Origin: an uncultured Verrucomicrobiota bacterium
Lineage (GTDB): Bacteria; Verrucomicrobiota; Verrucomicrobiia; Limisphaerales; UBA9464
Assembly (NCBI GenBank): GCA_903842505.1
Contig: CAIMMI010000011.1
Location: forward strand, 1-64,000
Direction of reading: 5' to 3'
Length of the DNA stretch: 64,000 nt
Numbering within the stretch: the stretch's first letter is position 1; each line of letters opens with the position of its first letter. The notes under the pieces were generated by a model. It made no database searches and had not been told where the DNA came from. It worked only from the letters and a program-made list of their open reading frames with translations. Shown piece by piece: positions 23,859-27,117 of this stretch. The translations under genes and the position numbers were made by a program.

Positions 23859-24962
23859 ATGGGCCTGATGGATTATCTCAAGACGCAGTTTCTGGAAATC
23901 ATCCAGTGGGAGGACGACTCCCGGGACACCCTTTCCTGGCGCTTCCCCGATCAGGACAAGGAGATCAAGAACGGCGCCCAACTGATCGTGCGGGAGTCGC
24001 AGGTCGCCCAGTTCGTCCACCTGGGCCAATTCGCGGACACTTTCGCCCCGGGCAAGCACAGCCTCAGCACCCAAAACATCCCGATCCTTTCGACGATCCT
24101 TGGATGGAAGTTCGGGTTCGAGTCTCCCTTCAAGTGCGACGTCTACTTCGTCAGCACGCGCCTCTTCACCGGAAACAAATGGGGCACCTCCAACCCAGTG
24201 ATGCTGCGCGACCCCGACTTCGGGATCGTCCGCGCCCGAGCCTTCGGCACCTACGACTTCAAGGTGGTCGATCCGAAAGTATTCCTGAAGGAGGTTGCCG
24301 GGACCGATCATCATTTCCGACTCGAGGAGTTCCTGGACACCATGCGGTCCCGTTTGGTGTCTGCCTTCACGGACGCCCTTGCCTCCAGCAAGATCCCGGT
24401 CCTGGATGTCGCATCCCGGTACGCTGAGGTTGGCGATGCCCTTCTGCCGGTCCTGAACCCGATCCTGCGAGGCAAATACGGCCTCGAACTGAGCAGCTTC
24501 ATCATCGAGAACGTCTCGGTTCCCCCAGAGGTCGAGCAGGCCATTGACAAGCGGTCGAGCATGGCCGCGATCGGTAACCTGAACGACTACGTAAAGCTCC
24601 AGATGGCCGAGAGCCTCGGCAAGGGGGATGGGGGCGGCGGACCGGGCGGCCAGGTGACCCAGTTCGCCATGGGCATGGCCCTCGCAAACCAGATGTTCAA
24701 TCAGGCGGGGGGTATCCTCGCGCAAGCGACTCCTCCGGCGGGCGCGGTCCCGCCGCCAATCCCAGGTCAGACTCCGGCAACCCCGACCTCGCCCTCTCCC
24801 GGCCTGCCGGAGTTGCTCACCCCGGCCGATGCTGCGCGCGTGCTCGGGGTCACCGAGTCTGACGTCCTGCAGGCGCTCGGCGATGGTTCTCTCAAGGGCA
24901 AGAAGATCGGCACTGCCTGGCGCATCACCCGCCAAGCCCTTGAGGATTTCCTCAAGAGCTGA
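23859..24962 (+). CDS. SPFH-domain (YdjI-like) protein with C-terminal excisionase-type helix-turn-helix
   Basis: 'MGLMDYLKTQFLEIIQWEDDSRDTLSWRFPDQDKEIKNGAQLIVRESQVAQF...' YdjI/virion-core-like SPFH; C-terminus 'LLTPADAARVLGVTESDVLQALGDGSLKGKKIGTAWRITRQALEDFLKS' fits HTH_17. Confidence 0.88.
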   Translation: MGLMDYLKTQFLEIIQWEDDSRDTLSWRFPDQDKEIKNGAQLIVRESQVAQFVHLGQFADTFAPGKHSLSTQNIPILSTILGWKFGFESPFKCDVYFVSTRLFTGNKWGTSNPVMLRDPDFGIVRARAFGTYDFKVVDPKVFLKEVAGTDHHFRLEEFLDTMRSRLVSAFTDALASSKIPVLDVASRYAEVGDALLPVLNPILRGKYGLELSSFIIENVSVPPEVEQAIDKRSSMAAIGNLNDYVKLQMAESLGKGDGGGGPGGQVTQFAMGMALANQMFNQAGGILAQATPPAGAVPPPIPGQTPATPTSPSPGLPELLTPADAARVLGVTESDVLQALGDGSLKGKKIGTAWRITRQALEDFLKS

Positions 24963-24986
24963 TTCCAGCACGGGCGCGCACGCCCC

Positions 24987-26144
24987 ATGACGCCGTCCCA
25001 GCAATCAGGCACTCCGCCCCCGATCCCGACCGTGGAAGCACAGGCCCGGTCCAAGTTCGCATGCCCCGCCTGTGGGGCGGAGGCAACGTGGAACCCCGCG
25101 AAGCAGGCGCTGGTCTGTGGCTACTGCAATACCATCGCGCCTGCGGTACTCGAGACCTCTCCCGGGGGCGACACGGTCATTCACGAACATGATCTGGTCG
25201 CCGCCCTCAGAAACATCCCGGACAGCCGACGCGGATGGCAGACGACCAAGACCCAGGTGCGCTGCCAGCATTGCAATGCGATCTCGGTCTTTGACTCCGA
25301 CAAGATCGGCAAGCGTTGTGATTTCTGTGGTGCCTCAGCCCTGGTCCCTTACGAGGAGGTCAAGGAAGCCTTCCAGCCCGAGAGTCTCCTGCCAAAACAG
25401 ATCTCGGAGACCCAGGTACGGGATAGGATCCGTGAGTGGTACCGGTCGCGTTGGTTCGCTCCCAGCGCCCTGGGAAAGCGAGCCCTCACCGACACCGTTC
25501 ACGGGGTCTACCTGCCCTACTGGACCTTCGATGCCCACGCTCAAGCTGATTGGACTGCCGAAAGCGGCTACCACTACTACGTCACGGAGCACTACACCGA
25601 TGCCCAGGGAAACCGGCAGTCCCGGCAGGTCCAGAAGACGCGTTGGGAATCCAGCTACGGGCACCTCGAAAACTTCTTCGATGACGAACTCATCGCCGCC
25701 ACCAAGGGCGTCGATTCTTCGTTGCTCTCCAAGGTCGAGCCGTTTCCTACCGCCCAATTGGTTCCCTACGACCCTGCCTTCCTCGCAGGATGGACGGTCG
25801 AACGATACCAGATTGACCTCGTCACCGCAGCAGCCTCAGCGCGGGAAAACATGGAGTCGGAACTTCGATCGCTCTGCAGCCGTCAGGTTCCCGGCGACAC
25901 CCACCGGAACCTCCAGGTCCATGCCCAATGGTCAGATCAGACCTTCAAGCACATCCTCGTCCCGGTCTGGCTGCTCACCTACGACTACCACGGCAAGTCG
26001 TTTCAGGTCCTGATCAATGGCTACACCGGGACCATTGCCGGAAAACGACCTTACAGCTTCTGGAAGATCTTCTTCCTCGTGGTTGGCATCCTCGCCGTCA
26101 TCGGCGTCATCGCACTGGCGGGCGGGCTGGGTGGCCGACGCTGA
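24987..26144 (+). CDS. Zinc-ribbon membrane protein (YdjG/TFIIB-zinc-ribbon-like)
   Basis: 'CPACGAEATWNPAKQALVCGYCN' and 'CQHCNAISVFDSDKIGKRCDFCG' CxxC pairs; C-terminal TM 'FWKIFFLVVGILAVIGVIALAGG'. Confidence 0.82.
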   Translation: MTPSQQSGTPPPIPTVEAQARSKFACPACGAEATWNPAKQALVCGYCNTIAPAVLETSPGGDTVIHEHDLVAALRNIPDSRRGWQTTKTQVRCQHCNAISVFDSDKIGKRCDFCGASALVPYEEVKEAFQPESLLPKQISETQVRDRIREWYRSRWFAPSALGKRALTDTVHGVYLPYWTFDAHAQADWTAESGYHYYVTEHYTDAQGNRQSRQVQKTRWESSYGHLENFFDDELIAATKGVDSSLLSKVEPFPTAQLVPYDPAFLAGWTVERYQIDLVTAAASARENMESELRSLCSRQVPGDTHRNLQVHAQWSDQTFKHILVPVWLLTYDYHGKSFQVLINGYTGTIAGKRPYSFWKIFFLVVGILAVIGVIALAGGLGGRR

Positions 26145-26158
26145 CCCATCGACATGGG

Positions 26159-27052
26159 TCACAGCGCCGCCTTGCGCATCGCCTGAAGCAACTGATCCGG
26201 CGTCCATCGATTCCCGACGATGATCTCGACCACCCGCCCCTGCGGATCGAGTACTACCGTCCGCAGATTGTGGTTCTGGTTGTCCGGCGTGACGTTCCGC
26301 CCGAAATAGAGCCCAAAATGGGAACCCAGCGGCTGGATCTGGTCGTAGGCTCCAGTGGCAAAGGTCCAGCGCTCGGGATCGTACTGATGACGCTTCGCGT
26401 AGGATTCCAACACACGCGGGGTATCCATCTCGGGTTCGAACGAGACCGAGAGCAGGTGCCAGTTGGTCGACAAGGGAGCGCCGGAGCGCAACGTGCGCAT
26501 CACCTGCGAAAGATTGTCCGCCTCCCGAGGGCAAAAGTCCGGCAACGGGCAACGTGTGAAGAAGAAATTGAAGACGAGCACCTGGCCCCGAAATCCCGAC
26601 AGGGAGACGGATTTCCCGAACTGGTTGGTCAGTACGTAGTCCGGTACGACGTCTCCAACCTTCAGTTCAGGAACATCCTTGTAGAAGGAAACACCATTGG
26701 GGTCATTCAACACGGGAGGCGCGGGAACGGAGACCTGTTGGGGACCGACATTGCTCAGCACCTGGAAGCCAGCCGCCCAGGAGTCCTTGGGCTCGACGTA
26801 GAGCTGGAAACGAACGACATCCCCGGAGCGCAGGCCGTCCAGCAGACGCACGTCCTTGACGTCAAACGGCATGGTCATGGCATCCATGTACCCCGGAATC
26901 TTTTCGTGCCGGATGACGGCTTCAGAATTGGTGGCCCGAACCTCAACCACCACGCCCCGGACATCGTAGACCGTCCGGTCCCGGCACCCCGCAAGCAACC
27001 CCGCCATTCCCAGGAACACCCATCCAACCCACCGTTTGATGCCTGATCGCAT
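26159..27052 (-). CDS. SCO1/SenC-family copper protein with N-terminal CusF-like domain; lipoprotein
   Basis: Lipobox 'LAGC'; 'GVVVEVRATNSEAVIRHEKIPGYMDAMTMPFDV' CusF-like; 'FNFFFTRCPLPDFCP' Sco-like Cys motif. Confidence 0.85.
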   Translation of the reverse strand: MRSGIKRWVGWVFLGMAGLLAGCRDRTVYDVRGVVVEVRATNSEAVIRHEKIPGYMDAMTMPFDVKDVRLLDGLRSGDVVRFQLYVEPKDSWAAGFQVLSNVGPQQVSVPAPPVLNDPNGVSFYKDVPELKVGDVVPDYVLTNQFGKSVSLSGFRGQVLVFNFFFTRCPLPDFCPREADNLSQVMRTLRSGAPLSTNWHLLSVSFEPEMDTPRVLESYAKRHQYDPERWTFATGAYDQIQPLGSHFGLYFGRNVTPDNQNHNLRTVVLDPQGRVVEIIVGNRWTPDQLLQAMRKAAL

Positions 27053-27117
27053 GCCGCCAACCTTCTTCACGCCCGCAAGCATTTCAAGGCTCCGAAAGTC
27101 CAACTCCTCTCCCCCCG

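Follow-up and report, generated by a model that had tools for sequence, protein, structure and literature searches.

An SPFH protein with a helix-turn-helix tail and its double zinc-ribbon partner: a candidate PspA-independent membrane scaffold in Verrucomicrobiota

Two adjacent genes encode a candidate membrane module in an uncultured Verrucomicrobiota bacterium (assembly GCA_903842505.1, contig CAIMMI010000011.1). The window, i.e. the whole stretch of DNA analysed, covers 64,000 nt. The first gene, P1 (23859..24962, forward strand), specifies a YdjI-like SPFH protein of 367 aa with a C-terminal helix-turn-helix (HTH) tail. The second, P2 (24987..26144), specifies a YdjG-like double zinc-ribbon protein of 385 aa with a single transmembrane (TM) segment and starts 24 bp downstream on the same strand. 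A preliminary description had placed two such open reading frames at 23859-26144, and both the coordinates and the 24 bp gap are borne out. No sigma-70-like site was found in a promoter scan of the P1/P2 locus; one weak hairpin-plus-T site lies 3′ of P2, and such sites are fewer than expected by chance. On the reverse strand, convergent with P2, a gene at 26159-27103 encodes a CusF-type copper-binding domain fused to SCO1/SenC.

P1 comprises an SPFH domain, a linker and a tail. The Band_7_1 domain (PF13421, E = 1.6e-84) spans residues 27-236 (23937..24566). The AF2 model of P1 has a mean pLDDT of 75.9, with confident SPFH and HTH parts and a poorly predicted linker. In Foldseek, it matches stomatin, HflK/C, prohibitin, erlin and flotillin (E down to 6e-9); domain and fold, from Pfam and Foldseek respectively, are thus those of an SPFH protein. 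The linker, delimited by alignment (residues 237-318, 24567..24812; pLDDT 39-58), consists of helical stretches and then a low-confidence Gly/Pro/Ala-rich segment with a PPPIP motif, which precedes the tail. No TM segment above a Kyte-Doolittle value of 1.6 was found in P1, in keeping with the solubility of YdjI-type SPFH proteins. The tail itself (residues 319-366, 24813..24956) is an HTH_17/excisionase-type domain, scoring above the curated cut-offs of both Pfam (PF12728, E = 2.9e-8, 34.3 bits versus 27) and NCBIfam (TIGR01764 excise, 33.5 bits versus 28.8). It is predicted as helix-helix-hairpin-helix with a pLDDT of 91-96, so that profile and structure prediction agree on the HTH_17 fold proposed in the preliminary description. 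HTH_17 recurs in 40 of the 44 aligned relatives of P1, the remaining four carrying GYF_2; a chance reading of the HTH is excluded by this conservation. At E ≤ 1e-3, HTH_17 is matched only once in the window genome, by the P1 tail, whereas several such matches are found in many genomes of the phylum.

P2 has two zinc ribbons and a C-terminal membrane segment, as first described, and a large core between them. Ribbon 1 is built on C26, C29, C44 and C47 (25056..25133) and ribbon 2 on C93, C96, C111 and C114 (25257..25337). These eight cysteines, forming two CxxC-CxxC pairs, are invariant across the family alignment. The TFIIB-type ribbon PF08271, to which ribbon 1 corresponds, is matched by 35 of 39 family members (Pfam); P2 of the window by itself has no significant Pfam match, its ribbon falling below the cut-off. 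NCBI names relatives of P2 ‘TFIIB-type zinc ribbon-containing protein’. The core (25374..26054) is predicted with very long beta strands (about 171-204, 210-237 and 305-334; pLDDT mostly 85-98) within a model of mean pLDDT 84.6. Against the PDB, Foldseek gave no fold match for the core (best E = 0.028), and the beta-rich matches obtained were dismissed as meaningless at a TM score of about 0.1. Likewise, a PDB sequence search returned no close relative of P1 or P2. The single strong hydrophobic segment of P2 (Kyte-Doolittle, about 355-384; maximum 2.95 at residue 361) coincides with an AF2 helix at residues 358-382 (26058..26132), taken as the TM helix. Among predicted structures, the core resembles two giant-virus proteins annotated as DnaJ-like subfamily C member 3, from Yasminevirus (E = 2e-11, TM 0.53) and Edafosvirus (E = 6e-9, TM 0.39), hinting that P2 may share with viral proteins a fold that is either joined to DnaJ chaperones or called after them.

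The closest known system is that of Bacillus. There, the SPFH protein YdjI joins a band-7 domain to a C-terminal zinc ribbon, and YdjG has two zinc ribbons, a further conserved domain and a TM segment (PMC11237479); YdjG carries a TF_Zn_Ribbon domain (PMC9239133). YdjI is likely soluble and is assisted in its membrane localisation by YdjG and YdjH, and the arrival of PspA at the membrane requires YdjI (PMC8581546). P1 resembles YdjI of the B. subtilis pspA-ydjGHI operon in its Band_7-type SPFH domain, its solubility, its small C-terminal module and the adjoining gene for a double-ribbon membrane partner, a place taken here by P2. The tail differs: P1 has HTH_17 where YdjI has a zinc ribbon, and no zinc ribbon was found by Pfam at the C-terminus of P1. 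P2 in turn resembles YdjG in its two TFIIB-type ribbons, conserved domain and C-terminal TM segment (PMC9239133, PMC11237479). This comparison runs through an Enterococcus homologue. Three consecutive genes of an Enterococcus plasmid encode an SPFH protein that ends in a zinc ribbon, then a ribbon protein and then a TPM protein, and P2 aligns with the second of these at 27% identity over 380 columns (E = 4e-38). Because of this homology, and since the make-up of the Enterococcus operon matches Bacillus YdjI/YdjG/YdjH, P1 and P2 are assigned to the YdjI/YdjG type, as the preliminary description had proposed.

The partners of the Bacillus system appear to be missing. PspA (PF04012), already noted as not adjacent, and a YdjH-type TPM protein (PF04536) were not found anywhere in the window genome; given an assembly that is 95.6% complete, both are probably absent. 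PF04536 occurs in some relatives, away from P1 and P2. PspA above the cut-off was not found in 61 of the 65 relatives bearing P1, and the five relatives with a strong PspA all lack P1. It could be argued from the homology to pspA-ydjGHI (PMC8581546, PMC11237479) that P1 and P2 form an ordinary Psp-type complex whose task is to bring in PspA and in which the HTH plays no particular part. YdjI works with PspA and YdjH, whereas P1 resides in a genome with neither PspA nor a TPM protein, and this reading, highly improbable overall, is largely refuted for the window genome.

P1 and P2 travel together. Among 116 related genomes, P1 is present in 65 and P2 in 63; 62 have both and 50 neither, leaving three with P1 only and one with P2 only. 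Both are thus found in 62 of the 66 relatives having either protein. Kinship of the 116 genomes inflates any p-value for this co-occurrence; even so, the two genes are retained or lost together. Of the 62 genomes, 39 have the two genes no more than 3.5 kb apart and 23 have them far apart or on different contigs, in some cases deep within long contigs. P2 adjoins P1 at 58 of 80 loci taken from named genomes; no other neighbour is conserved there. Other neighbour clusters were rejected as reverse-strand or out-of-frame shadows of P1 and P2 or as small lineage-specific sets, such as apparent glycyl-tRNA synthetase genes in Comamonas. Two aberrant copies were encountered: a P2 homologue interrupted by a single in-frame TGA (G089:C57:9746-10849) and a Polaromonas P1 (L124:5001-5249) whose open frame ends at 82 aa while the match extends to residue 366. 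Both are read as decayed, frameshifted or misassembled.

The SPFH+HTH architecture is common. Carriers are found among Verrucomicrobiota, Comamonadaceae, Lysobacteraceae and MAGs of Acidobacteriota, and named isolates among them are, for instance, Comamonas testosteroni, Lysobacter, Stenotrophomonas terrae, Arenimonas and Verrucomicrobium. This sample was picked by similarity to P1, so that more distant SPFH+HTH proteins may exist, and several MAG labels among the carriers are untrustworthy (e.g. Akkermansia and Bordetella). NCBI already names the architecture ‘SPFH and helix-turn-helix domain-containing protein’; an example is WP_224153175.1 of Comamonas odontotermitis, which has the architecture of P1 and a ‘TFIIB-type zinc ribbon-containing protein’ as neighbour. 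A literature search found no functional study of proteins of this name and no paper relevantly joining SPFH to excisionase, DUF4339, GYF_2 or helix-turn-helix. The preliminary description missed that the architecture is widespread and already named, and that the tail is swappable.

At least four modules occupy the tail slot of P1, namely HTH_17, GYF_2, a zinc ribbon (DZR) and SHOCT, with representatives confirmed by Pfam. In the same phylum, SPFH proteins about 50% identical to P1 end in GYF_2, and double zinc ribbons form the tail of others. All share Band_7_1 and the linker with P1 and differ in the C-terminal module, and many adjoin P2 homologues, which are found beside GYF_2-type SPFH genes and beside one of the zinc-ribbon type. 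On plasmids of Vibrio, Paracoccus and Tsukamurella, relatives combine a GYF_2 tail with an adjacent P2 homologue. In Burkholderia cenocepacia, the SPFH protein is SHOCT-tailed and its adjoining ribbon protein differs from P2. In a tree built on the SPFH part alone, the 81 HTH-bearing proteins all fall on one side of a single branch with support 100. The HTH tail was thus captured once, by one change on the tree, and then spread widely.

In Paracoccus ferrooxidans (L173:1219-5937), the GYF_2-type SPFH/ribbon pair follows toxic-anion-resistance and DUF2927 genes in the same direction, possibly as part of a larger operon. Two IMG/VR viral contigs (L177:3001-3960 and L178:1504-2481) encode Band_7_1 SPFH proteins that end in SHOCT-type tails and share about 40% identity with P1. 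The tail is confirmed by Pfam in L177, where replication-organiser-like and ParB-like genes lie nearby; phages may therefore carry the SPFH family of P1. Finally, a role in anti-phage defence was considered and rejected, PADLOC giving no support beyond a weak HTH-only match (E = 0.003).

What the HTH does can be approached through its recognition helix. In P1, the corresponding residues 333-342 (24855..24884) read ESDVLQALGD, an acidic stretch with no basic residue. In 105 distinct SPFH HTH tails, the helix (positions 14-23) has a mean net charge of -3.02 (range -4 to -2), and 96% of the tails have no basic residue in it. At position 16, Asp stands in place of the usual Thr in 105 of 105; at position 18, where Tyr is usual in top-scoring HTH_17, every tail except one has Leu, Met, Ile or Val. 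An earlier comparison used only the best-scoring HTH_17 domains and was biased towards the consensus; it was therefore rerun with 40 score-matched controls from the same phylum, of profile score similar to or slightly higher than that of the tails. The mean net charge of the helix in these controls is +1.48, and every one of them has a basic residue in it (p about 1e-25, a value that overstates independence, as the tails are related and the 105 of 105 goes back to a single change that was inherited and then retained). Ordinary HTH_17 helices of the same phylum such as ERTVYDWAQK and RSTLYKLLQD stand against SPFH tails such as ESDVLQALGD and EADVLASIEA. The hairpin shows an opposite trend. Compared with a widened filter to avoid bias, it bears K-x-K-K in SPFH tails where P-x-x-K is usual; the patch K-G-K-K of P1 (residues 346-349, 24894..24905) is kept across the SPFH clade and absent from ordinary HTH_17, and the net charge of the whole domain is near 0.

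The P1 tail thus shares the profile and predicted fold of the HTH_17/excisionase family, but the family signature of basic residues, Thr and Tyr has given way to Asp, Ala and aliphatic residues, with a Lys patch gained in the hairpin. Residues typical of DNA contact are not present in the recognition helix of P1 or of nearly every relative examined. Part of the role of Asp at position 16 may be to cap the helix (S-x-x-D). As the fold is kept, a strictly acidic surface is maintained across several phyla and DNA-contact residues are lost, the tail appears exapted for something other than the usual DNA binding. Judging from these residues, the HTH that P1 bears as its swappable scaffold tail is most likely a module exapted for docking rather than a classical DNA binder.

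These data bear directly on the reading in which the HTH functions in DNA binding, so that the pair would tether DNA (the nucleoid) to the membrane or sense membrane state and regulate genes. Profile scores above curated cut-offs, PHROGs matches to excisionase and DNA-binding families, and a K-x-K-K patch that could contact phosphates speak for it; 105 tails devoid of the Thr/Tyr signature, with nearly all recognition helices free of basic residues and a net charge of about -3, and non-DNA modules in the same slot of relatives, make it quite unlikely. The gained hairpin Lys residues may make weak or unspecific contact with nucleic acid or lipid. Of the two roles suggested in the preliminary description, DNA binding or protein docking, docking is the better half and DNA binding does not hold as a default. 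Protein docking is favoured because the slot is filled by GYF_2, zinc ribbons or SHOCT in relatives and because the DNA-reading helix is acidic.

The docked protein could be P2 itself, the HTH binding for instance its zinc ribbons or core in a closed two-protein unit. That P1 and P2 so regularly occur together, even where unlinked, is consistent with this, as is the fact that P2s partnered with HTH-type SPFH proteins are far closer to one another than to P2s of GYF_2 types. That divergence parallels the divergence of the SPFH proteins, however, and may be plain phylogeny; moreover, P2 homologues accompany SPFH proteins with GYF_2 or zinc-ribbon tails, so that partnership with P2 is not specified by the tail. 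We regard a closed unit as unlikely. Alternatively, the HTH could be a dipolar self-association module, its acidic helix facing the basic hairpin of the next subunit, which would cross-link SPFH rings or close a ring. Acidic helix and basic hairpin are both conserved and belong to one domain of nearly zero net charge, which agrees with such an arrangement, and SPFH proteins are known from structures to oligomerise. Inferred purely from charge, self-association seems distinctly improbable.

The reading preferred here, to which we give about even chances, is a PspA-independent scaffold of the YdjI/YdjG type, in which P2 is the anchor, P1 the SPFH oligomer and the HTH tips dock a protein. P2 would be tail-anchored in the inner membrane by its C-terminal TM helix, with its zinc ribbons and large beta core in the cytoplasm. 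This anchor would hold P1, itself lacking a TM segment, and P1 would assemble beneath the membrane as an SPFH oligomer, presumably a ring. The flexible linkers of its subunits would each bear an HTH_17 domain, so that the ring would display a crown of many HTH copies, and each tip may dock a client, a regulator or a neighbouring ring. A broader proposal, just short of even odds, is that SPFH rings carry an interchangeable C-terminal ‘plug’, that a phage-excisionase-type domain was captured once in one large clade and turned into a docking tip by acidification of its helix, and that ring and ribbon-bearing anchor together would constitute a PspA-free membrane assembly platform. What is new is the acidified recognition helix and the pattern of tail swaps, the SPFH+HTH architecture itself being common and already named.

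YdjI-type SPFH proteins form a group spread over many phyla, and the functional work found on them concerns Bacillus, where they are read as PspA adaptors. Helix residues 333-342 and the basic patch 346-349 offer handles for mutation, and culturable hosts such as Comamonas testosteroni and Lysobacter are at hand. The swappable tail suggests that the docked target is set by the tail and not by the ring. As the SPFH/ribbon pair persists without PspA, it seems to be the core machinery in its own right.
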